The position numbers and the translations under genes are program-made. The notes beneath the pieces were generated by a model. The model did not search any database. It was not told where the DNA came from and was given only the letters and a program-made list of their open reading frames with translations. A stretch of 64,000 nt of DNA from Oscillospiraceae bacterium. GTDB lineage: Bacteria; Bacillota; Clostridia; UBA1212; UBA1255. Below, piece after piece: positions 4,276-34,601 of the stretch; the stretch's first letter is position 1, and each line of letters starts with the position of its first letter. The stretch lies in assembly GCA_015069185.1 (NCBI GenBank), contig SVJB01000001.1:62001-126000 (forward strand). The letters are read 5' to 3'.

Positions 4276-4336
4276 TGAAAAAATGAGAACAAGGCAGAGA
4301 AAATACGATGTTGTGCCAATAACCGAATGAAATTTG

Positions 4337-17971: not shown

Positions 17972-18787
17972 TTAGTGCACTGTGCTCATTCTGTATTGTG
18001 TTGGTGTGGTCTTTTCGTGATATTTAAAATATTTAAAGAAAAGATTTACATCATCCCAACCTAGCATTTGTGATATTGTAGCAACGGGCAAGTCAGATGT
18101 TTGCAGTAGACGCTTTGATAAATTGATTTTTTCTTTATTAATAAATTCTTTTATAGAGCACCCATATTCTCTTTTGAAAACACGACAAAGATAATCTTTG
18201 TTGTATTTTAATATTTCACTTATTTCTGTAACTGTAATAGGTTGCATAACGTGGTGCAGAATATATGTACGCACCTTTTCAGCTAATTGCAACTGTTCGC
18301 TATGTCCGATTGACAGACGCTTTAATGCTCTGATAATAAGAAGCAACCAGGCATCATTATAGCAATTATTTGAATTTACAGTTTTACATTCATTATAGAG
18401 TTCGGTTAGAAGAGCCTCTAATGATTCGGCTTCGTTAAGTAATAAATAATTATCTATTTGAAAAAAGTTAAAGTAATCACATTGAAATTCTAAAGTAAAT
18501 AAAATACATTCATGCATTTCATTGTTCTGCTCGGGAGTACCTTTTATAAACTGATAGGGTGGTATCAACAAAACAGATTTTTCATTCAGGTGAAAAGTCT
18601 GTTTATTCATAGTGATGTCAAATGTACCTTTTTGTGTATACAAGAGAAAAAATCTGTCAAGAAATCTTTGGCGGAATTCAAGACCGTTTTGTAATTGATA
18701 CATGGTAATATCTTCAAAATTAAGACAAGAAGAACACCCTGCTGAATTTTCATAATGATTATAAACAGATTCTTCAACCTTTATCAT
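17972..18787 (-). CDS. AraC-family transcriptional regulator of the fructan locus
   Basis: 271 residues. N-terminal cupin-like sensing domain (about 25-150, FFLLYTQKGTFDITMNKQTFHLNEKS, VLLIPPYQFI), then a C-terminal pair of helix-turn-helix motifs (about 170-268): ITVTEISEILKYNKDYLCRVFKREYG and LPVATISQMLGWDDVNLFFKYFKY, ending in the classic TPTQYR. The start is the ATG complementary to 18785-18787, with AGGAGAG (complement 18795-18801); a longer start at 18847 lacks a good site. It is divergent from the first GH32 operon and is the only regulator in the locus, so it probably acts on the bipartite promoter element found at five local promoters (inference). The sensed ligand is unknown. Confidence 0.9.
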   Translation of the reverse strand: MIKVEESVYNHYENSAGCSSCLNFEDITMYQLQNGLEFRQRFLDRFFLLYTQKGTFDITMNKQTFHLNEKSVLLIPPYQFIKGTPEQNNEMHECILFTLEFQCDYFNFFQIDNYLLLNEAESLEALLTELYNECKTVNSNNCYNDAWLLLIIRALKRLSIGHSEQLQLAEKVRTYILHHVMQPITVTEISEILKYNKDYLCRVFKREYGCSIKEFINKEKINLSKRLLQTSDLPVATISQMLGWDDVNLFFKYFKYHEKTTPTQYRMSTVH

Positions 18788-18853
18788 GTCGTATTCTCTC
18801 CTGGGAAATTTAAGATTTTTCACTTGCGTATAGAAAACAACAAGCACTATAAT
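18786..18853 (+). promoter_or_regulatory. fructan-locus promoter 1 (bipartite AraC-type site)
   Basis: Box 1 ATGTCGTATTCTCTC starts at 18787 and box 2 TTTTTCACTTGCG starts at 18816. The TCG to TCACT distance is 28 bases, one more than at the other four sites. Box 2 overlaps a -35 (TTGCGT, 18824-18829), with TATAAT at 18848-18853. Box 1 also overlaps the ribosome-binding site and reaches the start codon of the divergent AraC gene, so autoregulation is possible. Confidence 0.65.
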
Positions 18854-18904
18854 AATATAGTATTTTCAGAAATAAGCAACAATTTTTTTTTTAGGAGGCT
18901 CTTC

Positions 18905-20524
18905 GTGCTAATACAGAAAAAATATCTTGCGTTGCCATATAATAACGGGATGGTATTAAAGCAAGTATCTTTTATTGAAAACGATATTTTGCAATTTGAC
19001 CTTAAAATCAAGCTTGACTTATTCACTCCTGAATGTTGGGCTTATGTTGATGTAGCGTCGTTAATAGGAAAGGATATAAAGCTGGTATTTACGAATGCAG
19101 AAGCTCCGGGAACTTTGCAATCTCAATTTGTAGCTGAAATTAATGAAAATGAGCAATATCCATATATGCCTGAACAGATTGATGATATTCCAATTGATTA
19201 TAATAATAAATACAGACCATATGTACATTTTACAGCACCATATGGATGGTTAAGTGATCCGAATGGTTTGGTATATGCCGATGGTGTTTATCATATGTTT
19301 TACCAATTTAATCCGGCAGGTGTAGATAAAGAAAATATGCACTGGGGTCATGCAGTAAGTCGCGATTTGTTGCACTGGGAGAATCTTGAAGTTGCACTGT
19401 TTCCCGACGACAAAGGTTTTATTTTCTCAGGCAGCGCTGTGGCAGACAAAGATAATATGATGGGAATTAAAGAACAATATACACCGATAGTGTTATTTTA
19501 TACTGCTGCCGGAGGTACTTCTGAAAGATCAAAGGGAGAACCGTTCACCGTAAGTCTTGCATATTCTGTTGATGGAGGACATACCTTTACAAGATATGAG
19601 GGAAATCCTATACTTCCAAATATAGCAGGTAAGAATCGTGATCCTAAGGTTGTATGGTGTACATCTATGAATTGTTATGTAATGGCTCTTTATTTAGAGG
19701 ATAGTCGTTACTGTCTCTTATCTTCAGAAAATTTAATAGAATGGAAAGTATTTCAGATATTTACGCTACCTGGAGATTCTGAATGTCCTGATTTATATTC
19801 GCTTACCCTTGAGGGTGATAATTCGTGTGAATACTGGGTGTTTAGTGGAGCCAGTGATTATTATTATGTGGGACAATTTCAGGATGGGCAGTTTGTATCA
19901 ACTCAGCCTGTAAAGAAACTTCACTATGGAAAGAGTAGTTATGCTGCTCAAACCTTTTCAAATCTTCCCGGAAGTAGAGTACTTCGCTTTTCCTGGCAAA
20001 GAGTAGAATTCCCACAGGTGCCTTTTAGTGGACAGCTTAGTATTCTGGGAGAACTTAAACTAAAGAATATTGAGAATGAATTATATTTATGTTTATGGCC
20101 GGTTGATGAAATAAATAATATAGCCTACAAGAATCAGGTTTTCAATAGAATTAATATTTCAAAGGATAATGAATTCATACAAGCAGTGCCAAGAGGAGCT
20201 CTTGATATATTCATAGAGGCATCTTATATACCGGGAGCGGTTGTTACTATTGATGTTTTGGGTGTTACAATTACATGTGACATGGTTAGAAATCAATTAT
20301 GCTGTGCAGAGAGTATCTCGCCTATGTCAATAAAACAGAGAAAGCTTCGGTTAAGGATAATTTTAGATAAGAATAGTATAGAGCTTTTCATCGATGACGG
20401 TGAATTCTATATGAGTAACAAGATAATTTGTGATTATAATTTGAACTATCTACGTATGAGAGCAAATAGTGATGTTCTAATTAAAACTCTCAGCATAGCT
20501 CAGTTACAATTGGAGGATATATGA
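18905..20524 (+). CDS. GH32 fructan hydrolase, cytoplasmic
   Basis: 539 residues from GTG 18905, chosen because AGGAGG at 18893-18898 is 6 bases upstream; no signal peptide. An extra N-terminal beta-rich domain (about 1-100) precedes the GH32 five-bladed propeller. The nucleophile Asp118 is in WLSDPNG (most relatives have WMNDPNG), the stabiliser is in NRDPK, and the general acid is in SECPDLY. Other signatures are MHWGHAVSRDLLHWE and FSGSAV. A C-terminal beta-sandwich follows (about 400-539, RLRIILDKNSIELFIDDGEFYM). GH32 enzymes cleave beta-fructosides (sucrose, inulin, levan); linkage preference cannot be read here. It is first in an operon with the kinase (4-base overlap) and the propeller glycosidase. 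Confidence 0.9.
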   Translation: MLIQKKYLALPYNNGMVLKQVSFIENDILQFDLKIKLDLFTPECWAYVDVASLIGKDIKLVFTNAEAPGTLQSQFVAEINENEQYPYMPEQIDDIPIDYNNKYRPYVHFTAPYGWLSDPNGLVYADGVYHMFYQFNPAGVDKENMHWGHAVSRDLLHWENLEVALFPDDKGFIFSGSAVADKDNMMGIKEQYTPIVLFYTAAGGTSERSKGEPFTVSLAYSVDGGHTFTRYEGNPILPNIAGKNRDPKVVWCTSMNCYVMALYLEDSRYCLLSSENLIEWKVFQIFTLPGDSECPDLYSLTLEGDNSCEYWVFSGASDYYYVGQFQDGQFVSTQPVKKLHYGKSSYAAQTFSNLPGSRVLRFSWQRVEFPQVPFSGQLSILGELKLKNIENELYLCLWPVDEINNIAYKNQVFNRINISKDNEFIQAVPRGALDIFIEASYIPGAVVTIDVLGVTITCDMVRNQLCCAESISPMSIKQRKLRLRIILDKNSIELFIDDGEFYMSNKIICDYNLNYLRMRANSDVLIKTLSIAQLQLEDI

Positions 20525-21888
20525 AGACAGTAATAGGTATAGATATCGGAACTACAACAATTAGTATTAGTCTTATTGAGCAGTCCGATGGCAGGGTAGT
20601 TAAAAGTGCTACATATTCAAATAATTCAGGTGTTATTAGCAAAGATTCCTTCTCTGATTTACAGGATCCTGAGATAATATATGATATTGTGTTAAGAGCT
20701 TTGACAGATATTGTCAAAGAATATGAAGTATCCTGTATTGGTATTACAGGACAAATGCATGGTATAGTTTACATAGATAAAGATGGTAATGCAGTAAGTC
20801 CTTTATATACATGGCGGGACGCATGTGGTAATGAGATGTATGAACGCGATAAGAGCTATTGTACGGTTTTATCTGAGAAAACAGGATATTCAATGGCTGC
20901 AGGATTTGGTTGTACAACATTCTACTATCATACAGTGAATCATAGAATTCCTGAAACAGCAGTTAAGTTTTGCACGATACAGGATTACATTGTCATTAAG
21001 TTAGTAAATAAGAAAGAGCCGGTTGTACACATATCTAACGCAGCAAGTTTTGGTATGTTTGATTTAAATAACAAATGTTTTGATTTAAATGCATTTAAAT
21101 CAGCAAATGTTGATACATCTTTCTTGCCGACTGTTACAAAAGATAATATCGTAGTTGGTTATTACAAAGACAGTATTCCGGTCGCGGTGGCTATTGGAGA
21201 CAATCAGGCCAGCTTCTTGGGTTCTGTACAGGACATGGAAAATAGTGTGTTAATTAATATTGGTACAGGTAGTCAGATATCATATATAACAAAAGATATT
21301 GTAAAGTCTTCTTCTTTAGAATCAAGACCTCTTGTCGGAGACTATATGATTCAAGCCGGATCATCATTATGTGGTGGCAGAGCGCTTGCTATTCTTGAAT
21401 CTTTCTTCAGAAAAATTGCTGAAGTAGTTATAAAAGAAAATGTACAGTCTGCATATCCCGGAATAGATGCGTGCATTGAGAAAATGATAGTACAAGATAA
21501 TTATAAAGAAAAAAACAGTCTTAAAATATCAACTAAATTTTCCGGAACAAGAAGTAATCCTGATGAAAGAGGATATATTAATAATATTAGTATAGATAAT
21601 TTTACTCCCGAAGATTTGATTGTTGGTTTTCTTAATGGCGCTATTAATGAGCTCTTGGAGATGTATATAATATGTAACTGCAAGCATACGGTTTTGGTTG
21701 GCTCAGGTAACGGATTACGCAAGAATGTTTTACTTAAGAAAATACTGGAAGAAAAGTTTAATATGAAGTTATGTGTTCCGCGTCATAACGAAGAAGCTGC
21801 GTATGGAGCTGCTTTGTTCTCTCTTGTGTGTAGTGGATTCTGTGAAAATATTCATGAAGCTCAAAAGCTTATAGTGTATGAAAAATAA
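20521..21888 (+). CDS. FGGY-family carbohydrate kinase
   Basis: 455 residues. Two actin-like ATPase domains: N-terminal GIDIGTTTISISLIE, GITGQMHGIVY near residue 78, and LYTWRDACG; C-terminal NIGTGSQISYIT near 248, GGRALAILESFF and VLVGSGNGLRKN near 390. GQMHG with TWRD is seen in xylulokinase- and sedoheptulokinase-like members. The operon position between GH32 and another glycosidase suggests that it phosphorylates the released sugar (fructose or a related ketose), but FGGY specificity cannot be assigned by eye. ATG 20521 overlaps the GH32 stop (ATGA), with TTGGAGG upstream. Confidence 0.85.
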   Translation: MKTVIGIDIGTTTISISLIEQSDGRVVKSATYSNNSGVISKDSFSDLQDPEIIYDIVLRALTDIVKEYEVSCIGITGQMHGIVYIDKDGNAVSPLYTWRDACGNEMYERDKSYCTVLSEKTGYSMAAGFGCTTFYYHTVNHRIPETAVKFCTIQDYIVIKLVNKKEPVVHISNAASFGMFDLNNKCFDLNAFKSANVDTSFLPTVTKDNIVVGYYKDSIPVAVAIGDNQASFLGSVQDMENSVLINIGTGSQISYITKDIVKSSSLESRPLVGDYMIQAGSSLCGGRALAILESFFRKIAEVVIKENVQSAYPGIDACIEKMIVQDNYKEKNSLKISTKFSGTRSNPDERGYINNISIDNFTPEDLIVGFLNGAINELLEMYIICNCKHTVLVGSGNGLRKNVLLKKILEEKFNMKLCVPRHNEEAAYGAALFSLVCSGFCENIHEAQKLIVYEK

Positions 21889-21900
21889 GGAGGTATTAAT

Positions 21901-23460
21901 ATGATTTATCAACCGGAACAAGGCTGTATTTGGGATCCTACAGTGCTCTATGTAAAAGATGCTTATTATATGGTGTGCATGTATAAACCATCAACTTCTC
22001 ATAAGGACAATTATATGTGGATGGCAAAGTCAGAGGATGGCGTTCATTGGTACAGTGTTGGTAGTGTCCTTGAAGATGAACGTGGTGTTTGTAAAATGTA
22101 TATGTATGAGACAGATGATGGAGTTGGACTCAATTTTGGTAGCTTTTCAGAAGGGCAAAGAGTAAACAACGATACATTAAGATATTACAAATCATATGAC
22201 ATGATTAATTGGGAATATGTTGGTGAGAATCAACCTGATGAAAGATGGTATAAAACAACAGGTAGATGGGACCATATGTATGTGCTCAAAGATGATAATG
22301 TTTATTACGGATATCCTGTGGCAACACCACTTCCTGAAATCAAAAGTGCATGGGGCTTATGTAAGAGTAATGATGGTCATCATTGGGAATGTACAGAGCC
22401 ACCAATGATTGAGTGGGGGGATATACCAATAATTGATTGCCTGGAAGGTGGCGGAGTGGAGAAAATAGGAGATAAGTACTACTATATTGGTGGCTTCGTA
22501 GGTTATGCAGGTAACTATGGATATGGGTTATACACATTTACATCGGATAAACCTGAAGGTCCGTTTACCCCGGATAAAGAAGCTTTTCGTTTATGCGGAT
22601 TCAATAGACTACCAGGTAGGGTTTTCGTACAAAATCTGGCAGCTTTTGCAAGGGGAAGAGATGGAGAACTGCTTATAAGCAATGCTGTTGATGCAGGAGG
22701 ACCATATGAGATAAGATTGCTTCCTATGAGAAAAGCAATAGTAGATAATGGTGGACATTTGCGTATGGGTTACTGGCAAGAAAATGAAAAGCTCAAGGGT
22801 ACTGAGATAAATATTACAACAGATATGCAGAAGTTAATTTATGCCAGTCATATGCCTGATGAGCAAATGCCTGATAATTGGATCTGCACAGAGTTCATAC
22901 CGGATGGAAATAGTCTTAAAGCTAATGTGGACGGTCCAAATGGTCCGGTAGTACATGATAGATTTTTATTGATGAAAATAGATGCAGATCTTGATCTTAA
23001 CAAGGGAATTATTTACGAAGGATCTTTTAATGCGTGGAGTTTGCCTGTATATGACGAAGAAAGACATATGACACACAATTGGCGTCCTGCAGAGATAGGT
23101 TTCTTTGTTGACGAGGAAACAGTAGATGGAAATATAAAAGGTATGGCTATTACGCTTGAAATAGGTCATCCGTACAAGCGTTATTCACATGTTAAAAATA
23201 TATCAGTTGAGAATAATATATTACAATACGATATTATTGATTCTATAACAGAAGGCTGTGCAGAGATCAAGGGTGTTGATGCGTGCAAGGAACATTCATT
23301 TAAACTTCTGTATAGAAAGAATGTTTTTGAACTTTATGTAGATGATATGTTCGTACAGACTTTTGTGCATTTAGGTAATCCAACAGGTCATATCGGATTA
23401 TACTTGCAGAATGCAAAGGTGACAATAAAAGAGATGAAAATATACGAAATGACACTTTGA
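21901..23460 (+). CDS. unclassified five-bladed-propeller glycosidase-like protein (GH32/GH43-type)
   Basis: 519 residues, no signal peptide, so predicted cytoplasmic. The N-terminal 330 residues look like a propeller: CIWDPTVLYVKDAYYMV (Asp12 as a possible catalytic Asp), blades with WMAKSEDGVHW and GLCKSNDGHHWEC, TGRWDHMYV (possible second Asp), and CLEGGGVEKIGDKYYYIGGFVG (possible acid Glu). The C-terminal part (about 370-519) is a beta-sandwich with FKLLYRKNVFELYVDDMFV, like the GH32 C-terminal module. It lacks WMNDPNG and ECPD, so it is not an ordinary GH32. The context of GH32 plus kinase suggests action on fructose-containing oligosaccharides or a fructose disaccharide inside the cell; substrate unknown. 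AAGGAGG lies 5 bases before the start. Confidence 0.65.
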   Translation: MIYQPEQGCIWDPTVLYVKDAYYMVCMYKPSTSHKDNYMWMAKSEDGVHWYSVGSVLEDERGVCKMYMYETDDGVGLNFGSFSEGQRVNNDTLRYYKSYDMINWEYVGENQPDERWYKTTGRWDHMYVLKDDNVYYGYPVATPLPEIKSAWGLCKSNDGHHWECTEPPMIEWGDIPIIDCLEGGGVEKIGDKYYYIGGFVGYAGNYGYGLYTFTSDKPEGPFTPDKEAFRLCGFNRLPGRVFVQNLAAFARGRDGELLISNAVDAGGPYEIRLLPMRKAIVDNGGHLRMGYWQENEKLKGTEINITTDMQKLIYASHMPDEQMPDNWICTEFIPDGNSLKANVDGPNGPVVHDRFLLMKIDADLDLNKGIIYEGSFNAWSLPVYDEERHMTHNWRPAEIGFFVDEETVDGNIKGMAITLEIGHPYKRYSHVKNISVENNILQYDIIDSITEGCAEIKGVDACKEHSFKLLYRKNVFELYVDDMFVQTFVHLGNPTGHIGLYLQNAKVTIKEMKIYEMTL

Positions 23461-23480
23461 CGATTTATTCATGGAATTTC

Positions 23481-23546
23481 AAGTCGTGTTTTTTCACTGT
23501 ATTAATCTTTTTTTCACTTGTTAAATAATTGTGAAGAATTTAAACT
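23481..23546 (+). promoter_or_regulatory. fructan-locus promoter 2 (bipartite AraC-type site)
   Basis: Box 1 AAGTCGTGTTTTTTC starts at 23482 and box 2 TTTTTCACTTGTTA starts at 23510; 27 bases separate TCG (23484-23486) from TCACT (23514). The -35 TTGTTA (23518-23523) is inside box 2 and the -10 TAAACT is at 23541-23546 (17-base spacer). It drives the surface protein at 23587. Confidence 0.7.
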
Positions 23547-23586
23547 GTTAATATTAAATAATATATTTTTAGAAAGGAAGATTTAT

Positions 23587-24906
23587 ATGTTTAAGAAAAT
23601 TTGCTGTGTTATGATTGTTCTTGCTATCGCTGTAAGCATGTTTGCTATGCCTTATGCTAGCGCTGCAGAGGGCTTTGACACAAATATGACAGGTTGGACA
23701 GTTCCAGACTCTGTTCTTGATGGTCAGACAAGTTCTGCTTGGACAGAAACAGCAGAAGGAAATGTTTTTGGCGATGGTGGCAAGGACGTTATTAAATCAG
23801 ATGTTGTTGTTGATGGATCTAAGTCATTTACTTATGAGGTTACATTCAAACTGAATGGTGGTTACGGTGCAGGCCTTACTTTTGGTACAAATAACAATGG
23901 TAATTTTAAAGGTGTTGAACTTGGCGGTGGTAACGTATATGGTATGTCAATGAACAACGGTGAATGGGGCGGATTCTGGTCTGGTCCTAATGCTGTACCT
24001 GCTGCAGAAGATGATATTTATACAATCCGTTGCGAATACGTTCATTCTATGCAATTCTTTGTTGTTTCTGTAAATGGCATTATTTATTTGTTAAATGCTG
24101 ACTTTGGTGGTGGAGTCCTTGCAGGTAACTTAGGTTTATATGCAGAGGATGCTTCAGCTATATTCATCAGCGCTAAATACACAGAAGGCGGTAATGGATT
24201 TAACAACAACATGGGCGAATGGACATTATATGAAGGTGCAGATGTTACTAATTTCCCGGCTGACTCCGGTAAGAACTGGATGGTTACAGATGATGGATTC
24301 AGCCACTTAGGTTGGGCTAGCGGTGAAGGAACTAGTGGAAAACAGTTTGCTTTCTCCGGTGTGACTGCTGATCCTACAAAGTCATTTAGTGTTGAGTATG
24401 TTCTTAGAAAACAACGCGATACACATGCCGCTGCAATGGTAATTGGATTTACTGATGTAGGCCACTACGTTGCATTCCAGTTTGGTAACGGTTCAAATGG
24501 TGAGTTACTTCTTATGAATTGTAAGACAGAGGGTAGTGAACTGCTTGGCATTAAAACTGATCTTCATAAAACAGCAACAGGCTTTGACGCTGGTACAACT
24601 GCTACACTTAAGCTTTGCTATGATCATGAAACAGGTACAGCAACATTCTACTACAATGGTGAGCTTGCATTTACAGTTGAGAATTTTGATACATCTCTCT
24701 TTAATGGTGGTTTTGGTGTTGTTACAGAAAATGGTCGTTCATACATTCTTTCTGCAACATACACAGAAGTTCAACCAGAGCAGCCTGAGAACCCAGAGCA
24801 GCCTGAGAACCCTGGTGAGAACCCTAACACAGGTGACTTCGGTCTTATCGCTCTTGCTTTTGCTGCAATTTCAAGCGTAGTTCTTAAGAAAAAGAAGGAT
24901 ATCTAA
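23587..24906 (+). CDS. wall-anchored two-module carbohydrate-binding-like surface protein (NPxTG tail)
   Basis: 439 residues from ATG 23587 (AAAGGAAG upstream). A signal peptide ends near YASAAEG. Two related beta-sandwich modules follow: GFDTNMTGWTVPDSV... (about 29-200) and GFNNNMGEWTLYEG... (about 202-395), each with a DxxKSFxxE strand and ending in an xYTE strand. A Pro/Glu linker (repeats of QPENPE) leads to NPNTGDFG, a hydrophobic segment and a Lys-rich tail, a sortase-type anchor. No catalytic domain is present. The modules resemble the one at the N-terminus of the GH32 at 34649, and the fold is reminiscent of CBM66 fructan-binding domains, so binding of fructan at the cell surface is inferred. 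Monocistronic, with a strong terminator. Confidence 0.75.
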   Translation: MFKKICCVMIVLAIAVSMFAMPYASAAEGFDTNMTGWTVPDSVLDGQTSSAWTETAEGNVFGDGGKDVIKSDVVVDGSKSFTYEVTFKLNGGYGAGLTFGTNNNGNFKGVELGGGNVYGMSMNNGEWGGFWSGPNAVPAAEDDIYTIRCEYVHSMQFFVVSVNGIIYLLNADFGGGVLAGNLGLYAEDASAIFISAKYTEGGNGFNNNMGEWTLYEGADVTNFPADSGKNWMVTDDGFSHLGWASGEGTSGKQFAFSGVTADPTKSFSVEYVLRKQRDTHAAAMVIGFTDVGHYVAFQFGNGSNGELLLMNCKTEGSELLGIKTDLHKTATGFDAGTTATLKLCYDHETGTATFYYNGELAFTVENFDTSLFNGGFGVVTENGRSYILSATYTEVQPEQPENPEQPENPGENPNTGDFGLIALAFAAISSVVLKKKKDI

Positions 24907-24951
24907 CATTCTATAGATAGTAATTTACTATTTAGCTCTTCTTAATTTAAT

Positions 24952-24997
24952 AAACACCTCGGACGATTTCCTCCATATATCATCGTTCGGGGTGTTT
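24952..24997 (+). terminator. intrinsic terminator after the NPxTG surface protein
   Basis: A 16-bp stem (AAACACCTCGGACGAT against ATCGTTCGGGGTGTTT, two G-U pairs) with a 14-base loop, followed by TATTTTG. Confidence 0.8.
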
Positions 24998-25011
24998 TAT
25001 TTTGAATATGC

Positions 25012-25076
25012 AAATCGTTTTTTCTCAATATTATCTAAAAATTATCACTTGTTATATTTGACTCTGCTGATATAAT
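25012..25076 (+). promoter_or_regulatory. fructan-locus promoter 3 (bipartite AraC-type site)
   Basis: Box 1 AAATCGTTTTTTCTC starts at 25012 and box 2 ATTATCACTTGTTA starts at 25041; 27 bases lie between TCG (25015-25017) and TCACT (25045). -35 TTGTTA is at 25049-25054 and -10 TATAAT at 25071-25076. It drives the four-gene operon 25111-32972. Confidence 0.7.
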
Positions 25077-25110
25077 TATCATTAGTTTATAATAATTTTG
25101 GAGGAGTATT

Positions 25111-26571
25111 ATGGAGTGCATTTATCGTCCTAAAATACATTTTACGCCGGAAAAGAATTGGATGAATGATCCTAACGGTCTTGTTTATGATGAAACAACA
25201 TGTATTTATCACTTATTTTTCCAATACTGTGATTCTCTTATAGAAGACCAATCAAAGAAATTCTGGGGACATGCTATATCAAAAGACTTATGTCATTGGG
25301 AAGAGATCGCCCCGGCAATCTGGCCGGACGGCCTTGGTGGAGCATGGTCAGGTTCTACTGTTATAGATGAAAAAAATACATCGGGATTTTTTGATGATTC
25401 TGTTCCTGCTGGCTCCAGAATGGTTGCTTTTTATACCAGTGCATTTGGAGATATTACATTAGGGTATCAGAAACAATCTATTGCATATTCAAAAAATAAT
25501 GGTAAGACATGGATTAAATACGAGGGTAATCCCGTAATATATGAGACACAGCAAGAGGGTGTTGTGTTTTCAAATCGTGATCCAAAGGTTTTTTGGTATC
25601 CGGATAAGAGCCGCAAGCATGGCGGTTTGTGGATTATGGTCATTGCAGGTATGTGGGCTCGTATCTTCACGTCGGAAAATCTCCGTGAATGGACATTCCA
25701 GGGAGATATAATGTTGCCTGATGGAGTGAGGCATTTAGAATCAGAATGTCCTGATCTTTTCCCCATGTATGTAGATAATAATCCTAAAAATATTAAATGG
25801 GTTTATACAGGTGGTGGACGTTCGTATGTAATAGGTGAACTGGTACGTGAGGCCGATGGTAGATATATGTTCAAACCTGAGACTGACTACATTGCTCCGT
25901 TGGTTGGATGTGATGACATGTACGCAGCACAGTCTTTCTACAATGATCCTAAGGGACGTAGAGTTGGTATATACTGGATGATAGATAAGACAGCCGATCA
26001 GCTTATAGAGGATAATAAGGTATGGGATGGATATCAATCTATCCCGTTAGAGTATAAACTTAAATCTAAAAATAATAGTTTAAAATTATACTTAACTCCG
26101 GTTGGCGAAATCGCAGATATGAGAAGTGATGCTGTGATTGATATTGTAAATAATATAGTTAATGAAAAAGATTTATTAACTGTCTATAATGATGATTCGA
26201 ATTTTCCTGTTGACATGGAAGTAGAACTTGATGTAACAGATTGTAATGAATTTTCTATCTATCTATGGCAAAACAAAGAAAAAAGAACGGTTGTGAAATA
26301 CAATAAAATAAATGAAAAAATATTTCTTGACCGGTCAAACTCCGGAAAGATTAAGTCGGGCATATATGAGATGGCGTTACAACCGACAGAGGAAGGAATA
26401 ATAAAATTACGCATACTGCTTGATGCATCAATCGTAGATGTCTTTGCAAACGACGGAGAAGTAATGTTCAATGCAATCGTCTTTCCTGAAAATAAAGGTG
26501 GCAATATTAACATAGAAGCCACTGATGGTATATTAAAGATAAACAATCTTAAAATATATAGACTTAAATAA
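25111..26571 (+). CDS. GH32 fructan hydrolase, cytoplasmic
   Basis: 486 residues, the compact GH32 size (propeller plus C-terminal beta-sandwich). There is no signal peptide; the catalytic domain begins at once. Nucleophile Asp20 is in NWMNDPNG, the stabilising Asp in SNRDPKVFW, and the acid Glu in ESECPDLFPM. Further signatures are KKFWGHAISKDLCHWEE and AWSGSTVIDEKNTSG. The sandwich has KLRILLDASIVDVFANDGEV. It is related to the two following membrane GH32 enzymes, so the operon holds intracellular and extracellular versions. GGAGGAG lies directly before ATG 25111. Preference for sucrose, inulin or levan is not readable. Confidence 0.92.
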   Translation: MECIYRPKIHFTPEKNWMNDPNGLVYDETTCIYHLFFQYCDSLIEDQSKKFWGHAISKDLCHWEEIAPAIWPDGLGGAWSGSTVIDEKNTSGFFDDSVPAGSRMVAFYTSAFGDITLGYQKQSIAYSKNNGKTWIKYEGNPVIYETQQEGVVFSNRDPKVFWYPDKSRKHGGLWIMVIAGMWARIFTSENLREWTFQGDIMLPDGVRHLESECPDLFPMYVDNNPKNIKWVYTGGGRSYVIGELVREADGRYMFKPETDYIAPLVGCDDMYAAQSFYNDPKGRRVGIYWMIDKTADQLIEDNKVWDGYQSIPLEYKLKSKNNSLKLYLTPVGEIADMRSDAVIDIVNNIVNEKDLLTVYNDDSNFPVDMEVELDVTDCNEFSIYLWQNKEKRTVVKYNKINEKIFLDRSNSGKIKSGIYEMALQPTEEGIIKLRILLDASIVDVFANDGEVMFNAIVFPENKGGNINIEATDGILKINNLKIYRLK

Positions 26572-26595
26572 TACTGGCTTTGGAGGAAATACATA

Positions 26596-28323
26596 ATGAA
26601 AAGAATAGTATGTTTATTGTTGTTATGCATACTTCTTATTGGGAGTATGATTGTGGTACAGGCGAGGGATCCTGAATATGATCAGGAATATCGCCCTCAG
26701 TTTCATTATACACCAAAGGCAAACTGGATGAATGATCCCAATGGCCTTGTTTATAATGAGGAAACAAAGGAATATCACATGTACTATCAATACTGTCAAA
26801 CACTAGAAGAAGATCAGAATAAAAAATATTGGGGACATGCAGTATCAAAAGATCTTGTACACTGGCAGGAGCTTCCTGTTGCAATAGGACCTGATGAACT
26901 TGGTAGTATTTGGTCTGGTTCAGCTGTTATAGATAAGAAGAATACATCAGGTTTATTTGATGATAAAACACCTGAAGGAGCTCGTATGGTAGCTCTCTTT
27001 ACGTATGCAGGCGGAGATAGCAAATATGGTTTTGAGAAAGTAGGACTTGCATACTCAAAAGATAATGGTTTGACTTGGACAAAGCATGAAGGTAATCCTG
27101 TTATAGCAAGTGTTGAGAATAATACTATTGTTTTTGATGGCGCATTTCGTGATCCAAAAGTAATTTGGTATGAGGATGATAGTTATGAGAATGGTGGTAT
27201 ATGGCTTATGGTCATTGCCGGAGGCGAGGCAAGAATTTTCACATCCGAAAACCTTATTGATTGGACATATAACAGTACAATGAAAAAAGCAGATGGGAAA
27301 GAAATACAATCAGAGTGTCCTGATTTCTATCCTCTTGAAGTTGAAGGTTCCGGTGGGAAAATCAAATGGGTATACAGTGCAGCCGGCAGAAGTTATTATG
27401 TAGGAGATCTGACTAAAGATTCAAATGGTTATTTCAGATTTACTGCGGATAACAACGAACAGGTTTTAATGAGATTACCAACTGATATGTATGCTGCACA
27501 AACATTTTTTAATGATCCTAAAGGTCGTAGAATTGCTGTGTATTGGATGTTGGATCTAAGCTCCAAAGAACAGAATAATTTAAATGAAAAGCTTTGGGAT
27601 GGTTGTCAATCTTTGCCTCTTGAGATGAAGCTTGTGCAAACTGATGACGGTCATGAACTTAGAGTATATCCTGTTGAAGAACTTGACTCTTTGATAAGTG
27701 ACAAGTTATTATTTGAATCATCCGGCGATGTTGTAAATGGACAGTATGATAAACTCCAGAACGTAACAGGAGAAAATCTATATATAGAGATTGAACTTCA
27801 GCCAGGAAGTGCTAAATATTTCGATATATATGTACGTGAAGGTGGGGAAGAAAAGACATTAATCAGATATAATAAGAATGCAGGTACAGTGACTATCATT
27901 CGTCGTGACTCAGGTGCTTTTGTGAAAGATAATGTGTCAGTGCAGACAGATCTTAATAGTGATGGTAATATTAAACTGAAAATATATGTAGATACATCCG
28001 TAGTAGATGTTTTCACAGACACAGGTGCATATATACAGGGTCTTATATTCCCGGCAAAGACATCTACCGGTTTACATATGGAAACAAAGAATGGAGATAT
28101 GACGGTTAAATCCATAAAGATTTATGAAATGAACTCTGCATGGGATGAGGTATCTATTAATGATGATACAGCAACTCATGAGCCTGATGATACAAATGAT
28201 GATGCTAACGATGGTTTTCCTGTTTTGTATATAATATTAATTATTGCAGGTGCTATAGTGATTGTAGCTATTATAGTTATCGTGATGTGTATAGTTGTAA
28301 AGAAGAAGAGAGGAATATTATGA
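26596..28323 (+). CDS. GH32 fructan hydrolase, secreted and membrane-anchored
   Basis: 575 residues. The signal peptide (1-23, cleavage near VVQA) is followed by GH32: Asp47 in ANWMNDPNG, FRDPKVIWYEDDS, and SECPDFYPLEV as the acid motif. The C-terminal sandwich (about 370-520) is followed by an acidic linker (THEPDDTNDDAND). A single membrane segment (about 542-567, VLYIILIIAGAIVIVAIIV) precedes a VVKKKRGIL tail. The enzyme should face outward, held at the membrane. It lies 24 bases after the cytoplasmic GH32, and its TGA overlaps the next start (ATGA). Likely an exo-acting fructanase or beta-fructosidase; mode not provable here. Confidence 0.92.
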   Translation: MKRIVCLLLLCILLIGSMIVVQARDPEYDQEYRPQFHYTPKANWMNDPNGLVYNEETKEYHMYYQYCQTLEEDQNKKYWGHAVSKDLVHWQELPVAIGPDELGSIWSGSAVIDKKNTSGLFDDKTPEGARMVALFTYAGGDSKYGFEKVGLAYSKDNGLTWTKHEGNPVIASVENNTIVFDGAFRDPKVIWYEDDSYENGGIWLMVIAGGEARIFTSENLIDWTYNSTMKKADGKEIQSECPDFYPLEVEGSGGKIKWVYSAAGRSYYVGDLTKDSNGYFRFTADNNEQVLMRLPTDMYAAQTFFNDPKGRRIAVYWMLDLSSKEQNNLNEKLWDGCQSLPLEMKLVQTDDGHELRVYPVEELDSLISDKLLFESSGDVVNGQYDKLQNVTGENLYIEIELQPGSAKYFDIYVREGGEEKTLIRYNKNAGTVTIIRRDSGAFVKDNVSVQTDLNSDGNIKLKIYVDTSVVDVFTDTGAYIQGLIFPAKTSTGLHMETKNGDMTVKSIKIYEMNSAWDEVSINDDTATHEPDDTNDDANDGFPVLYIILIIAGAIVIVAIIVIVMCIVVKKKRGIL

Positions 28324-31130
28324 AAAAAATTCAAAGGTTTGTTTTTATAGCAATTTTTATTTTGATAACAATATGTGCTTTGGTATATGCCAGTGCAGCG
28401 GAAGGAGATAATAACATGTCATATGAGTATATTACAAATATACAGCTTGTTGATGGACAGTTAAAAAAACTTGATGTTACTAAAGGTAATTATGTGATAA
28501 CAGAAGTTCCTTACTCTATGGAAAAGGCAGAATTTATTATTGATGCTGTAGATGGGACACAATTAACATTTAATAATAACGTAATTAATGCAGGAGAGAA
28601 AACAAGTCCTGTAGAGCTTAATCTTGGTAATACAGTATTTACCGTAAAAGCAACAAAAGATGGTAAAACAGAGAAGGTTATTATCACAGTTAAAAGATTG
28701 CAGGATCCTGATCTTTTATATAAAGAAACATATAGACCTCAATTCCATAATTCTCCTCAAATGTTTCTCATGAATGATCCCAATGGACTTATTTATAATG
28801 CAGCAACAAAGGAATACCACTTATATTATCAATATGCAGCAAACTTAATTCCAAATGAAGAAACAAAAGTATGGGCTCACGCAGTATCTAAGGATCTTGT
28901 ATATTGGGAGACTCTTCCCATTGCAATTTATCCGGATGAATTTGGTGAAGCGTACTCTGGTTCTGCTGTGATTGATTATAAAAATACATCAGGATTATTT
29001 GATGAAAACACACCGCCGGAAGCAAGAATGGTTTTATTCTATACATCCTACTCAGGAAAGTTTGGTAATGGCGCATATGGTGATCAATGTCAGAGCATGG
29101 CATATTCTTTAGATAATGGTGTTACATGGATTAAATATGAGAATAATCCTGTTATAAAAAATGATAGAAATAAATATAGCGGTGGATTCAGAGATCCCAA
29201 GGTTATTTGGTACGAAGATAGCAGTTATGCTAATGGCGGTATATGGCTTATGGTTGTTGCCGGTGGAGATGCAAGATTATTTACATCGGAAAACCTTATC
29301 GATTGGGAATATAATGGCGTGCTTAGATATGAAACAAATGGTCCTATCAATACGGAATGTCCTGATTTCTTCCCGATGGCAGTAAATGGTGATCCTAATA
29401 ATATTAAATGGGTATACATGGGGTCAATATATAACGGAGGCAACTGTAGAGTTATATTTGCTGTAGGAGATTTTGAAAAGAGAGCAAATGGCAAATTTGG
29501 ATTTAAAGCTGATTTTTCAAAGAAAGATATATCTGTAAATGGTAATAATCAGGTTTATTCACAACAAACATTCTTTAATGATGCCAAAGGACGTCGTATA
29601 GCCATTAACTGGATATGGGATTGGGTTTCATTTGATAATTATGAGACAGGGAATGTTAAGAACTGGCTCGGTGTACATACTTTACCGGTAGAGCTGAAGC
29701 TTGTATATGAAAATGGTGAATATGATATACAACAGGTCCCTGTAGAAGAACTTAAGAAACTTAGATTTGATGAACCGATTTATAGCACAGAGAATAAGGT
29801 TGTTGCACCTGGTGATAAAAATATTTTAGATGGTGTTACAGCAGATCTTTATGAGATTGAAGCTACTTTTAATCCGGGTAATGCAACAAAATTTGGATTT
29901 AAACTTTGTGTTGGCAGTGAGCACCAAACTCTCGTATATTATGATGCTCAGGCAAAGCAACTTGTGCTTGACAGAACCAACTCCGGTATTGCAATGAGTG
30001 ATGGCGGTCCCGTTATGAAAGTAGATATGAATCCTACAAAAGATAATAAGATACAACTCAGAGTGTTTATTGATACATCAATCATTGATATTTACGGTAA
30101 CGATGGTATGGCTGTCATTAACACCCAGATATATCCTGGCACAGATGCTAAGAATATGGTATTTTTTACAGAAGGTGATAGTGTTACAATAGAATCACTT
30201 AATATTTATAAATTAGATTCAATTTATTTTAGTCAATTAAACGAAGAAGGAGATAACATGGTAGACGATAAAACACCTGTACCAAAAGATGATATTAAGA
30301 AAAGTAATAATAAAATGATACCGATTATTATTGCGATTGTTGTGTGTGTATTAGTAATAGCAGGAATTATTATTGTAATTACATTAAAAAATAAAGGAAA
30401 TAATAATCCAACACCAACTATTTCACCATCAATTGCACCGACAGCTACTGATGATAATGGTACAGATAAGAAAACAACTATGTTTGAGTTACCTGCTAAT
30501 GCTCGTGGTAAAGCCTTCTGGGAAGACAAGAAAATGGCAATACTAGGTGATAGCATTACAGCTATGAATGGATTTCAAAGTTTACTCAGAGAACTGACAG
30601 ATTTGAAATTCATATATAATAATGACAGATACGCAATCAGCGGTACACAGCTTACGGGTACTACGATGCCATTTACAGAAAGAGCTCCGGAAATAACAAA
30701 AAGTGCAGGAGTTATTATGGTATTTGGCGGTACAAATGATTTCCATGTAGGTGCACCTCTGGGAACTATTAATGATCCTGCCGGTACAGATACATTCTAC
30801 GCTGCTTTGAGAAAAGTGTGTGAATCATTCAAACAAACTCATCCTGATGCAGTAGTATTCTTTGCGACTCCACTGCAAAGATCACATGCTCCCGGAAACG
30901 GTTCGACAGAAGGCATTAATGCTGCAGGTCTCACTCTTGAAGACTATGCGAATGCAATTATAAATATATGTACTGAGTTTGAATATCCTGTACTTGATTT
31001 ATATCATACAAGTCAAATTACTAAAGAAACAGCAGATAATTATCTGTTTGATGGATTACATCCAAATACTGAGGGCTTTGCTGTTCTTGGTAAAGAAATT
31101 GCAAAATTTATGTGTCCTGACGAGGTTTAA
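28320..31130 (+). CDS. GH32 fused through a membrane segment to an SGNH esterase
   Basis: 936 residues from ATG 28320 (AGAGAGGA upstream); a longer start at 28287 is rejected. Order: signal peptide (1-27), cadherin-like beta-sandwich (about 30-130, ending VTVKR-like), GH32 with Asp153 in FLMNDPNG, GGFRDPKVIW and TECPDFFPM, C-terminal sandwich to about 640, membrane segment about 666-690 (IPIIIAIVVCVLVIAGIII), KNKG, a Pro/Thr linker, and an SGNH domain (nucleophile Ser745 in LGDSITAMNG, GGTNDFH, LHPNTEG). With a cleaved signal peptide and a stop-transfer segment, GH32 would be outside and the esterase inside the cell, which is unexpected. An esterase could remove acyl groups from decorated fructans or sugars; substrate unknown. 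Confidence 0.88.
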   Translation: MKKIQRFVFIAIFILITICALVYASAAEGDNNMSYEYITNIQLVDGQLKKLDVTKGNYVITEVPYSMEKAEFIIDAVDGTQLTFNNNVINAGEKTSPVELNLGNTVFTVKATKDGKTEKVIITVKRLQDPDLLYKETYRPQFHNSPQMFLMNDPNGLIYNAATKEYHLYYQYAANLIPNEETKVWAHAVSKDLVYWETLPIAIYPDEFGEAYSGSAVIDYKNTSGLFDENTPPEARMVLFYTSYSGKFGNGAYGDQCQSMAYSLDNGVTWIKYENNPVIKNDRNKYSGGFRDPKVIWYEDSSYANGGIWLMVVAGGDARLFTSENLIDWEYNGVLRYETNGPINTECPDFFPMAVNGDPNNIKWVYMGSIYNGGNCRVIFAVGDFEKRANGKFGFKADFSKKDISVNGNNQVYSQQTFFNDAKGRRIAINWIWDWVSFDNYETGNVKNWLGVHTLPVELKLVYENGEYDIQQVPVEELKKLRFDEPIYSTENKVVAPGDKNILDGVTADLYEIEATFNPGNATKFGFKLCVGSEHQTLVYYDAQAKQLVLDRTNSGIAMSDGGPVMKVDMNPTKDNKIQLRVFIDTSIIDIYGNDGMAVINTQIYPGTDAKNMVFFTEGDSVTIESLNIYKLDSIYFSQLNEEGDNMVDDKTPVPKDDIKKSNNKMIPIIIAIVVCVLVIAGIIIVITLKNKGNNNPTPTISPSIAPTATDDNGTDKKTTMFELPANARGKAFWEDKKMAILGDSITAMNGFQSLLRELTDLKFIYNNDRYAISGTQLTGTTMPFTERAPEITKSAGVIMVFGGTNDFHVGAPLGTINDPAGTDTFYAALRKVCESFKQTHPDAVVFFATPLQRSHAPGNGSTEGINAAGLTLEDYANAIINICTEFEYPVLDLYHTSQITKETADNYLFDGLHPNTEGFAVLGKEIAKFMCPDEV

Positions 31131-31151
31131 TAGAAGGAAAGGAAATTTGAT

Positions 31152-32972
31152 ATGAAAAGATTAAGAAGAATGGTATTTTCAATGGCATTACTTGCATTAA
31201 GTGTTCTTTTATTGGTGTCGTGTGCAAAAGACTCCACAAGTAATCCGCCAAAAACATCTGATACTCCTACAAAGGATTTGAATGCAGAGTTTACTGACAC
31301 AATATCCGGTGTTCAGGCAGATGAAAATAAGTTTATGAATATTTCTATTGTAGATGAAGGTGTAGATATTTATGCATACGAAGAGGGCCAGACATGGGGA
31401 TATAGATATGGCCCGTCTATGATTAATTATGCGGATGGCACTATGGATGCATGGTTTGCTGCTCCGGGTGCATGTGGTCCTTGGGATTATTTTACATACA
31501 GACATTCTGATGATGGTGTTTCATGGTCAGATGAGAAGGTTGTATTACAACCTCTGCCGGAAACAATGGATTATGCATCAGTATGTGATCCTGGCCTCGT
31601 ATATTTTGGTGGATATTACTATATGGGATACACATCAACTATACATAATGGCGGCGTATGTAACAATGGTTTTGTAGCAAGATCAAAGAATCCTGACGGA
31701 CCATATGAAAAGTGGAATGGCTCAGGTTGGGGAGGAGAGCCGGCTCCTATTGTTTATTACACAGATGATGGCTCTGCCTGGGGTGCAGGTGAGATGAGCT
31801 TTGTAGAAGTTGACGGCACTCTGTATATTTACTACACATGGAAGACTCCTAATTCTAATACAACCAGAGTATCAATTGCTGACTCTACAAAAGAGAATTG
31901 GCCTGCTACAATGCAATATAAAGGTATTGCTATGGAATATAATATGGCGGATAATGAAGATTCAGCTGATGTAAAATACGTAGAGGATTACGGTAAGTTT
32001 ATCGCTATTAACACAACTAAACGTATGGGACCTGATAGCGCAATTCAGATCTGGGAATCTAATGATGGTATTACATTCTACAGAACAAATACATTAAAAA
32101 CTAATATTATTTATTATTGCCATAACGCAGGATTTATGTCTCGTCCAAACGGTCACATTAACTTAAATGATAAATTATATTTAGGCTACGCTTACGGTGG
32201 TACCAGTAACGACTGGGGTAAATGGAGTACAAGACTTCACGAATTTAAAATTACATTAGGTGATGCTATAGATACATCAGATGCTCAGAAGCCTAACAGA
32301 AAAGTAGATGTTGAGCATTGGACACGCGATCATGAATGGAATGTTGCGATTGCAACAAATAGTCTGCAACATTACGAAAAGTACTTATCACAGGGTAAGT
32401 TTGATATTGAATTATTTACTGTAGATACTACATTTAAAACAACAAAACTTACAGATTCAAAGGGCGTTGTATTTTCTGATTATGATACTTCTTTGATATC
32501 ATTTAAAGGATTTACTTGTACACCAAAGAAGACAGGTTCTACATATGTAACTGTTACATATGACGGATTATCTCATATATTTAAAGTAACAATTCTGGAC
32601 GATGAAGGAATCGTTAATTCTGCATATCCGCTTATGGTTGAGTTTAAATCTGCTCTGACATATGCATATGATGGTCCTGTGAAAATTAATGAAGATGGTT
32701 CTGTAACAATGTATGTATCAAACAGAAAAGAAAAGGTACAGCTCCGTGCTATGGCTCGATTTGATGACAGAAACTTTATGGAAATTTCTAACGGCGTAGG
32801 CGAATTTTTTGATGGCAAAAGATATATATATGATATCACATATACCTCATCTGATGAAAATATTGTGAGAGTTGCCAAGAACGGTGTTGTATCTGCAAGA
32901 AAAGTCGGTACTGCAACGGTTACAGTTAAATGTGGAGATTTTTCATACGATGTTAAGATTACTGTAGTATAA
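31152..32972 (+). CDS. GH43-like propeller lipoprotein with Ig-like C-terminal domains
   Basis: 606 residues. Signal peptide with lipobox LLLVSC, then a Ser/Thr/Pro linker. Residues about 60-370 have propeller features: YRYGPSMINYADG, FTYRHSDDGVSWSDE, SVCDPGLVYFGGYYYMGYTS (GH43-like Asp), and GAGEMSFVEVDGTLYIYYTW (possible acid Glu). The remainder holds beta domains, the last two resembling bacterial Ig-like (Big_2) folds (STYVTVTYDGL, and ITYTSSDENIVRV...GTATVTVKCGDF). It cannot be placed in a known GH family with certainty. It is last in the four-gene operon, 21 bases after the GH32-SGNH gene, and is predicted to sit on the outer face of the membrane. The substrate is probably fructan-related by context only. 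Confidence 0.7.
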   Translation: MKRLRRMVFSMALLALSVLLLVSCAKDSTSNPPKTSDTPTKDLNAEFTDTISGVQADENKFMNISIVDEGVDIYAYEEGQTWGYRYGPSMINYADGTMDAWFAAPGACGPWDYFTYRHSDDGVSWSDEKVVLQPLPETMDYASVCDPGLVYFGGYYYMGYTSTIHNGGVCNNGFVARSKNPDGPYEKWNGSGWGGEPAPIVYYTDDGSAWGAGEMSFVEVDGTLYIYYTWKTPNSNTTRVSIADSTKENWPATMQYKGIAMEYNMADNEDSADVKYVEDYGKFIAINTTKRMGPDSAIQIWESNDGITFYRTNTLKTNIIYYCHNAGFMSRPNGHINLNDKLYLGYAYGGTSNDWGKWSTRLHEFKITLGDAIDTSDAQKPNRKVDVEHWTRDHEWNVAIATNSLQHYEKYLSQGKFDIELFTVDTTFKTTKLTDSKGVVFSDYDTSLISFKGFTCTPKKTGSTYVTVTYDGLSHIFKVTILDDEGIVNSAYPLMVEFKSALTYAYDGPVKINEDGSVTMYVSNRKEKVQLRAMARFDDRNFMEISNGVGEFFDGKRYIYDITYTSSDENIVRVAKNGVVSARKVGTATVTVKCGDFSYDVKITVV

Positions 32973-32974
32973 AA

Positions 32975-33040
32975 AAGTCGGATTTTCTTACTTATAAGAT
33001 AAATTTTTCACTTATTAAAACGTTAATAAATGTGTAATAT
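32975..33040 (+). promoter_or_regulatory. fructan-locus promoter 4 (bipartite AraC-type site)
   Basis: Box 1 AAGTCGGATTTTCTT starts at 32976 and box 2 TTTTTCACTTATTA starts at 33004; 27 bases lie between TCG (32978-32980) and TCACT (33008). -35 TTATTA 33012-33017, -10 TAATAT 33035-33040, spacer 17. Box 1 starts only 3 bases after the previous stop codon, and no terminator intervenes. Confidence 0.7.
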
Positions 33041-33073
33041 ATTAACCATATAAAATAGAAAGGAAGAAGTATT

Positions 33074-34435
33074 ATGAAAAGAAAAAGTAATATGATAATA
33101 GCAATAACATTGTGTTTATGCTTAATGTCTGTTTTGTTTTCAGGGATATCTGTATCTGCTGACAGCGGTTTTGATACAAATATGACCGGATGGACAGCAG
33201 CTGATGGTACTACCTGGACCAATGACGAGACAGGATATTGGAATGGCAAATATGACGAAGATAGTTCTACATCCAACTATAAACACCTGGCAAAGAGTGA
33301 TACTGTGATCAGTCGTGATAAATCTTTCACATATGAAATACAGTATCAGTTTGATGGATATGGTGTAGGTCTTGCTTTAAATGTTGTTGACAGAAATAAT
33401 TTCTATGCAATTGAAATTAACTGCGACAAAAATGTTTATACTCCAAAAGTAGAAAATGGTACTTGGGGATTATTTGGACCAATGGAAAGTGTTGCTACAG
33501 ATGATCAAATTAGTAGCGAGACAGTTCATACGATGTTATTTGATTATGATGCATCTACCGGCGGTGCAAAGGTTTTCGTTGATGGCACAGAAACAATAAC
33601 ACTTGTATATGTTCCTGATTCAGCGTTTGGTAACTTAGGTCTGTACTATGAAGATGGTGAGGCAAGATTTATTAAGGCTACTTATACAGAAAAAGAAAGC
33701 GGAGAAGGTCCTGCTACTCCTACAACATCCTTTGAAACAAATATGGGTGAATGGTCTTCTGCAGACGGTAGCGAATGGAAAGAAACAGTTAATGGATACA
33801 GTTGTGTTGGTAGCTCAAGTGGCAGACATGTAGCTATGTCATCTATTGAAGTTGATGGTACAAAATCTTTTGAATATGAGCTTACATTTAAATATAGTGG
33901 ACATGGTGCAGGTATGGCATTTGCAGTGGTAGATGCGGCAAATGTAGCTGCGATTGAGATTAATAGAGAAAGTAGATTATATTTTCCTATACTTACTGAT
34001 GGTATTTGGGGTACATTCTATTCGGATGGTCAGAACTTATCATCTGCACAAATGGAAGCTGAATATCATACTCTTAAATTTATTTATTACGCACAGGACG
34101 AAGCTGCAGAGGTATATCTTGATGACGAACTTATGCAGGAAATTTGGTTTGACGATTCATCAGTGATTAGCGGTAAGCTTGGTGTACATCATGAAGATGC
34201 TACAGTTTACTATACAAAAGCTATTTATACTGAGATTGAGGATCCTACACCGGCTCCTACACAAGTACCTACAGCAACACCTGAAGCTACAGAAGTTCCT
34301 GCAACAGAAGTACCTGCTACAGATGCTCCGACAGAAGCACCTGCAAAGAAGGACGGCGGATGTGGATCTTCTTCAGCTATCGCACAGATAATGTTAATTT
34401 TAGGTGCAGCTCTTATTATAAAGAAAAAGAAATAA
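33074..34435 (+). CDS. two-module carbohydrate-binding-like surface protein with CGS C-terminal tail
   Basis: 453 residues. The signal peptide ends near ISVSADS. Two homologous beta-sandwich modules follow: GFDTNMTGWTAADG... (about 32-210) and SFETNMGEWSSADG... (about 218-390), sharing KSFxYE, the HTMLF/HTLKF strand, GNLGLYYED/GKLGVHHED and xYTE. They match the modules of the protein at 23587. A Thr/Pro/Ala linker with ATEVPATEVPAT repeats leads to the tail GGCGSSSAIAQIMLILG, a short hydrophobic segment and KKKK. That tail recurs in the protein at 39581. No catalytic domain; proposed fructan-binding surface protein. ATG 33074 has AAAGGAAGAAG upstream. Own fructan-type promoter and terminator. 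Confidence 0.75.
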   Translation: MKRKSNMIIAITLCLCLMSVLFSGISVSADSGFDTNMTGWTAADGTTWTNDETGYWNGKYDEDSSTSNYKHLAKSDTVISRDKSFTYEIQYQFDGYGVGLALNVVDRNNFYAIEINCDKNVYTPKVENGTWGLFGPMESVATDDQISSETVHTMLFDYDASTGGAKVFVDGTETITLVYVPDSAFGNLGLYYEDGEARFIKATYTEKESGEGPATPTTSFETNMGEWSSADGSEWKETVNGYSCVGSSSGRHVAMSSIEVDGTKSFEYELTFKYSGHGAGMAFAVVDAANVAAIEINRESRLYFPILTDGIWGTFYSDGQNLSSAQMEAEYHTLKFIYYAQDEAAEVYLDDELMQEIWFDDSSVISGKLGVHHEDATVYYTKAIYTEIEDPTPAPTQVPTATPEATEVPATEVPATDAPTEAPAKKDGGCGSSSAIAQIMLILGAALIIKKKK

Positions 34436-34463
34436 TTGATTTATTTATTGTTTTATATAATAG

Positions 34464-34493
34464 CCCATGTATTCCGATAATAGAGTACATGGG
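34464..34493 (+). terminator. terminator after the CGS-tail surface protein
   Basis: CCCATGTA and TACATGGG form an 8-bp stem with a 14-base loop, partly closed by a further TTC/GA pairing, followed by TTTTATTTATT. Confidence 0.7.
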
Positions 34494-34535
34494 TTTTATT
34501 TATTGAGGAAATGATATATAATTACTTCATGAAAT

Positions 34536-34601
34536 AAGTCGTTTTTTCTCTGAAAGGAAAATAATATTTCACTATTATAAGAATACTAATTGTAGTAATA
34601 T
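34536..34601 (+). promoter_or_regulatory. fructan-locus promoter 5 (bipartite AraC-type site)
   Basis: Box 1 AAGTCGTTTTTTCTC starts at 34537 and box 2 TATTTCACTATTAT starts at 34565; 27 bases lie between TCG (34539-34541) and TCACT (34569). -35 TATTAT 34573-34578, -10 TAATAT 34596-34601, spacer 17. Confidence 0.7.

Follow-up and report, generated by a model that had tools for sequence, protein, structure and literature searches.

A two-box sequence at five promoters of a fructan locus is the probable operator of the adjacent AraC-family regulator

Our analysis of a 64,000-nucleotide stretch of DNA from an Oscillospiraceae bacterium (contig SVJB01000001.1, positions 62,001 to 126,000; hereafter, the window) reveals a bipartite sequence of nearly invariant spacing that is placed against the −35 element of five promoters, is nearly confined in the genome to one fructan locus, and is conserved beside orthologues of the local AraC-type regulator. 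The sequence is very probably the operator of the AraC-family protein encoded at 17972-18787, which would activate the five promoters.

RESULTS

Five promoters of the locus share a bipartite site of fixed spacing

The bipartite site consists of GTCG-N2-TTTTCTC (box 1) followed by TTTTCACTTGTTA (box 2). Reading of the promoter regions located it ahead of the genes at 18905, 23587, 25111, 33074, and 34649, precisely the five genes for which an initial annotation of this DNA had described it. The TCG of box 1 lies at 18789, 23484, 25015, 32978, and 34539; TCG and TCACT are separated by 28 bp in the first of these sites and by 27 bp in the remaining four, exactly the spacing first described. The sites and their promoters are as follows (E-values refer to the bacterium's own genome):

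18786..18829, + strand: operator site 1, gap 28, ATGTCGTATTCTCTC-N15-TTTTTCACTTGCGT, E 1.5e-6; −35 TTGCGT (18824-18829), −10 TATAAT (18848-18853), between the divergent araC gene and the GH32 gene at 18905
23481..23523, + strand: operator site 2, gap 27, ahead of the gene at 23587, E 1.9e-6; −35 TTGTTA (23518-23523), weak −10 TAAACT (23541-23546)
25012..25054, + strand: operator site 3, gap 27, ahead of the gene at 25111, E 1.2e-6; −35 TTGTTA (25049-25054), −10 TATAAT (25071-25076)
32975..33017, + strand: operator site 4, gap 27, ahead of the gene at 33074, E 7.6e-7; −35 TTATTA (33012-33017), −10 TAATAT (33035-33040)
34536..34578, + strand: operator site 5, gap 27, ahead of the gene at 34649, E 7.6e-7; −35 TATTAT (34573-34578), −10 TAATAT (34596-34601)

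In all five window sites, the second box lies at the −35 element and a −10-like hexamer follows 16–18 bp downstream of it, as had been claimed, with the −10 of site 2 being weak. Counting the sites of relatives described below, box 2 abuts or overlaps the −35 element in 14 of 14 cases. The −35 hexamers of these promoters are poor, and the −10 hexamers are mostly good. For AraC-type activators, a site against the −35 element is termed class II.

The column similarity between box 1 and box 2 is highest at an offset of 22 bp (permutation p 0.03) and next highest at 20 bp; no inverted repeat between the boxes was detected (permutation p 0.31). The direct repeat about two helical turns apart that had been proposed is thus present with modest significance and with a best period of 22 bp rather than the canonical 21, a loose fit to the direct repeat of about 21 bp, or two helical turns, of AraC-type operators.

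For leave-one-out analysis, a two-box matrix was trained on any four window sites and scored on the fifth. Each held-out site was the top non-training place in the window (5/5), scoring 24.5–30.5 bits versus 19–21 bits for the best other place. Exact-pattern scans for the boxes were too strict and were set aside. A sequence-only model of the five sites was then applied to the genome (2.1 Mb in 54 contigs, judged 85% complete, the window lying within a 205-kb contig) and returned the five window sites at E-values of 7.6e-7 to 1.9e-6, with the next match at 0.097; the motif is accordingly far from a random density across the genome.

The site-led units encode fructan-degrading enzymes

The genes of the locus, as assigned mainly by Pfam, are as follows:

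17972..18787, − strand: AraC-family regulator, 271 aa (AraC_binding, PF02311, 5.7e-6; HTH_18 4.6e-16; HTH_AraC 3.1e-14)
18905..20524, + strand: GH32 beta-fructosidase, first gene behind site 1 (Glyco_hydro_32N 1.9e-59)
20521..21888, + strand: FGGY-family carbohydrate kinase, overlapping the GH32 gene at 18905 (FGGY_N 2.5e-24)
21901..23460, + strand: weak candidate for a GH43/GH32-like hydrolase, last in the first unit (Pfam matches below cut-off)
23587..24906, + strand: probably secreted protein behind site 2 (signal-peptide-like start; 30% identical to the 33074 product)
25111..26571, + strand: GH32 enzyme, first gene behind site 3 (Pfam)
26596-28323, 28287-31130, and 31152-32972: continuation of the site 3 unit, namely a GH32 enzyme, a GH32 enzyme with a GDSL esterase domain, and an Ig-like-domain protein (Pfam)
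33074..34435, + strand: probably secreted protein with a CBM66-like (levan-binding) domain, behind site 4
34649..37225, + strand: large GH32 enzyme, 858 aa, behind site 5 (Glyco_hydro_32N 2.8e-60)

The local regulator is of AraC type, as had been stated: it combines an AraC_binding N-terminal domain (PF02311 above its cut-off) with a two-HTH C-terminal domain, and its PDB matches are XylR, MarA, AraC, and response-regulator HTH domains. Together, the five site-led units encode five GH32 enzymes (one with the GDSL esterase domain), the FGGY kinase, the Ig-like-domain protein, and two related, probably secreted proteins. Residues 217-383 of the 33074-34435 product match levanase chains in the PDB (4azz/4b1m/4b1l, E 8e-4). 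The locus is flanked on both sides by housekeeping-type genes (tRNA nucleotidyltransferase, EF-G family, citrate synthase).

The GH32 and FGGY kinase genes, which overlap as separate genes in the window, are fused in relatives (L049:4101-7154, L050:8862-11978, and L055:3623-6763). The fusion and overlap with GH32 suggest that the FGGY-type kinase acts on fructose, a step for which ROK or PfkB kinases are the usual enzymes. By a definition quoted in PMC7833758, a Gram-positive polysaccharide utilization locus combines a degrading enzyme and a regulator with a carbohydrate transport system; the present locus has enzymes and a regulator, and falls outside that definition in that no gene within 17972-37225 matches a transporter family.

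The site is conserved beside orthologues of the regulator

Orthologues of the AraC protein are present in 5 of 30 other genomes of the order (G009, G011 (twice), G012, G014, and G017; 34–39% identity). Those in G009, G011, G012, and G014 are 34–36% identical and carry the same site, with a gap of 27 bp and a −10 whose register is fixed. GH32 genes adjoin the orthologue on G011:C151, G011:C18, G012:C74, G014:C121, and G017:C180; on the 3.2-kb contig of G009, the neighbour of the orthologue has no Pfam match. Conservation of the motif at orthologous loci, on which the original proposal depended, thus holds for site and spacing in four genomes, with two copies in G011 and with GH32 genes alongside in most. 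The G017 orthologue (39% identical) is the exception: no site was found on its contig, which is only 5 kb long and on which araC lies inside an operon.

With the five-site window model, the best matches outside the own genome were G011:C151:11709 (E 1.1e-4), G014:C92:3538 (9.7e-4), and G011:C151:4061 (0.0076). Both contigs encode GH32 enzymes, and G011:C151 also encodes an AraC orthologue. A matrix scan of the orthologue-bearing contigs and G014:C92 yielded nine strong sites, all nine with a gap of 27 and all nine with TATAAT or TAAAAT exactly 17 bp past the hexamer that follows TCAC. In the alignment of 14 sites from five genomes, the TC of box 1 and the TCACT of box 2 are invariant, and the gap is 27 in 13 of 14. 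A further site, G009:C160:4331, which was outside the training set, scored 32.1 bits with the 14-site model; it precedes a CE2-like gene behind a GH32 gene, the same layout as on G011:C18.

Overall, the site is present in 5 of 6 AraC-positive genomes and in none of the 25 that are AraC-negative (Fisher p 3.5e-5; 1.8e-4 when the own genome is excluded; values that are optimistic because the genomes are related). No match below E 0.004 came from the orthologue-lacking genomes of the order, not even from G010 and G013, in which GH32 genes are present. No site of at least 13 bits was found in control GH32 loci from orthologue-lacking G001, G004, G010, G013, and G020, or in GH32 loci that have no orthologous regulator nearby (L109-L113, L115-L117, L121, and L122). 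One of these, the GH32 cluster at G009:C145:15001-34000 (L113), is a cluster without the operator in an AraC-positive genome. Among 391 genomes sampled from the class, clustered matches occur only in the own genome and G012; matches outside the order (G258, G300, and G343) are single, adjoin unrelated genes, and were judged to be chance.

Between relatives, the regulator is 50–53% identical in its HTH domain and 22–31% identical in its N-terminal part. A constant operator combined with a drifting sensor would be expected to produce such a roughly twofold difference.

The site overlaps the predicted start and Shine-Dalgarno region of araC

In all five relative loci, an araC promoter-like pair (TTGACA/TTGACT-N17-TATAAT-like) ends 42 bp before the ATG, and in four of the five, the complement of box 2 lies 36 bp before that codon, where araC transcription would be expected to begin; the operator of G011:C151 is shifted to the GH32 side. 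The window has a candidate araC promoter that is weaker and further out than its counterpart in relatives:

18854..18882, − strand: candidate araC promoter, TTGTTG-N17-TATATT, 8/12 matches; transcription from it would run through site 1

Since the site covers the predicted araC start in four relatives, and since araC of the window would be read through site 1, the bound regulator is predicted to repress its own gene.

At araC-adjacent sites in the window and in four relative loci, box 1 holds the araC Shine-Dalgarno sequence on the opposite strand (AGGAGA; window 18785-18805, L050:1821, L051:8977, L052:6347, and L053:1978). This overlap is a confound, in that it would by itself conserve part of box 1 at araC-adjacent sites. 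Free of the confound are the nine sites located away from araC (four in the window and five in relatives) and the G011:C151 site.

Weaker candidate sites precede esterase genes

The initial annotation had considered the motif absent from the other promoters of the window; that claim needs correcting, for the scan revealed a weaker, candidate sixth site:

4269..4311, − strand: candidate site 6, TCG at 4308, gap 27, TCGTATTTTCTC-N14-TTTTTTCATTG, with TCATT replacing TCACT

Site 6 scores 20.3 bits, versus less than 14 for any other separate place in the window, and has an own-genome E of 0.11. It lies just upstream of a CE2/GDSL esterase gene (4210-3113), which is followed by a CotH-domain gene (3036-1132). 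Another candidate, at position 294 of contig 23 (E 0.021), likewise has TCATT in place of TCACT, has a TATAAT in register, and precedes a SASA-type carbohydrate esterase. In relatives, strong sites precede CE2-like genes (L051:15267 and L114:4331). The distribution of sites points to esterases as partners in fructan breakdown.

Other candidates were rejected. Own-genome matches on C22, C27, C29, C35, and C45 had no convincing two-box match or had unrelated neighbour genes, and a candidate at a ROK-kinase gene (L058 6079, − strand) lies in a TTTCTC-rich stretch, has no good in-register −10, and falls to 15.3 bits with the 14-site matrix. The genome-wide search had been expected to return fructan genes and a transporter; the first part was borne out by near-confinement of the matches to the fructan locus, and the second was not, there being no transporter among the operator matches. 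Near-confinement to the pathway and conservation beside orthologues are what would be expected of the regulon of a local regulator, G017 being the exception.

The GH32 loci of the lineage repeatedly contain, or lie close to, carbohydrate esterase or GDSL domains (28287-31130 and 3113-4210 in the window; L050:6443-8896, L113:7651-8463, L114:4393-5730, and L059:357-2069 in relatives).

The few esterase genes hint at acylated fructan as a substrate, and a literature search gave nothing for or against this idea. A broader proposal is that the regulon includes the unlinked CE2 and SASA esterases, that the real substrate is acylated fructan, and that one AraC switch also silences its own gene through the segment containing the araC start and ribosome-binding site. 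We regard this combination as conceivable but rather doubtful; the argument for the substrate is that the regulon would extend to esterases and that, in relatives, the operator directly precedes CE2-like genes and GH32 is fused to GDSL esterase domains.

DISCUSSION

The regulator and its mode of action

The proposal that the local AraC-type protein uses the bipartite sequence as its operator, and that this sequence defines its fructan regulon, gains support from the density of sites, co-conservation with orthologues, the repeat geometry, and the −35 position. Conservation beside orthologues, direct repetition at about two turns, and placement relative to the −35 element together argue for an AraC-family operator, most likely for activation. 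For binding, activation, inducer, and autorepression, we infer the following. Each half-site of the direct repeat would be occupied by one copy of the AraC DNA-binding domain, with a distance of about two helical turns between the two. Upon sensing a fructan-derived sugar, AraC bound against the −35 element (class II position) would activate the five promoters and thereby control five fructan-breakdown units, comprising GH32 enzymes, the FGGY kinase, and CBM66-like secreted proteins; two unlinked carbohydrate esterase genes may also belong to the regulon. At the araC-GH32 divergent promoter, where the site covers the beginning of araC, the same bound protein would probably repress its own gene.

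That T-rich upstream regions merely yield look-alike boxes deserves almost no credence. The boxes are indeed T-rich, and low-scoring look-alikes exist (L058 6079 and the isolated class-level matches), but the leave-one-out ranks and whole-genome E-values, along with the fixed spacing and the cross-genome conservation at orthologous loci, refute chance and composition for the five sites; chance may explain the L058 candidate and, in part, site 6 and the contig-23 site. It is improbable, though less so, that the local AraC protein binds these sites mainly as a repressor that occludes the −35 element and is released by sugar. Box 2 lies at or over the −35 region in every site, as this would have it; however, the poor −35 and mostly good −10 hexamers fit activation, as does the rigid distance from operator to −10, because an occluding repressor needs no fixed phasing. 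In addition, AraC-family carbohydrate regulators with upstream tandem sites have been read as activators (PMC8579813).

The genome encodes 27 AraC-type HTH proteins, at least one other of which is at a GH32 cluster, and assignment of the regulator therefore rests on neighbourhood and co-conservation. It is nevertheless quite unlikely, more so than repression by the local protein, that a regulator from elsewhere (any of the 26 further AraC-type proteins, or a member of another family) binds the sites and that the local AraC protein is a bystander or co-target: the sites track orthologues of this regulator across genomes, and they lie directly at the araC gene in the window and in four relative loci. 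The rival at the second GH32 cluster, on contig 11, is a different AraC paralogue, divergent from a GH32 gene, whose HTH region has 21% identity to that of the local AraC protein over 107 aa, and no operator site was found at that cluster. The regulon of the local AraC protein is thus not equivalent to all fructan genes, and the genome has at least two fructan-type switches, of which this operator belongs to one.

The contig 11 paralogue (L115; 75-1418, − strand) is divergent from two CE2-like genes and a GH32 gene and has at its C terminus an additional domain, about 170 aa long, that resembles the domain repeated in the CBM66-like proteins (E 3e-11 against the window product of 33074-34435). 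It seems to carry its own carbohydrate-binding module.

Comparison with known systems

The system is ordinary in kind, a new fructan regulon with a probable AraC-family operator that appears solid by sequence. It shares with AraC/XylS activators (AraC at araI, RhaS) the combination of AraC_binding and double-HTH domains and a direct repeat of about two turns at the −35 element, upstream of catabolic genes, and it differs in having a clade-specific motif and regulon, a best period of 22 bp, and fructan targets. AraC-family rhamnose regulators have unique motifs that are direct repeats with a 21-bp period (PMC3870299). In Caldicellulosiruptor bescii, ab initio analysis of AraC-family regulators found tandem-repeat motifs with large spacers upstream of the promoters of polysaccharide genes, and these were read as activator sites (PMC8579813); the tandem layout is the same, but none of those regulons is for fructan (the words fructan and levan are absent from the text). 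Our literature searches found no AraC fructan operator. The conserved site permits prediction of regulons in unannotated genomes and defines, in an uncharacterised bacterial lineage, a fructan regulon that can be tested. A functional comparison is with the fructan utilization loci (gpPULs) of Roseburia and Eubacterium rectale (PMC5320581), with which the present locus has in common GH32 enzymes, a CBM66 domain, and an adjacent regulator. The table of that paper gives LacI regulators and ABC transporters for the E. rectale fructan loci, whereas the locus described here has an AraC-type regulator and no transporter; an AraC-type switch with a conserved operator provides a useful alternative model to the LacI regulators of those loci.
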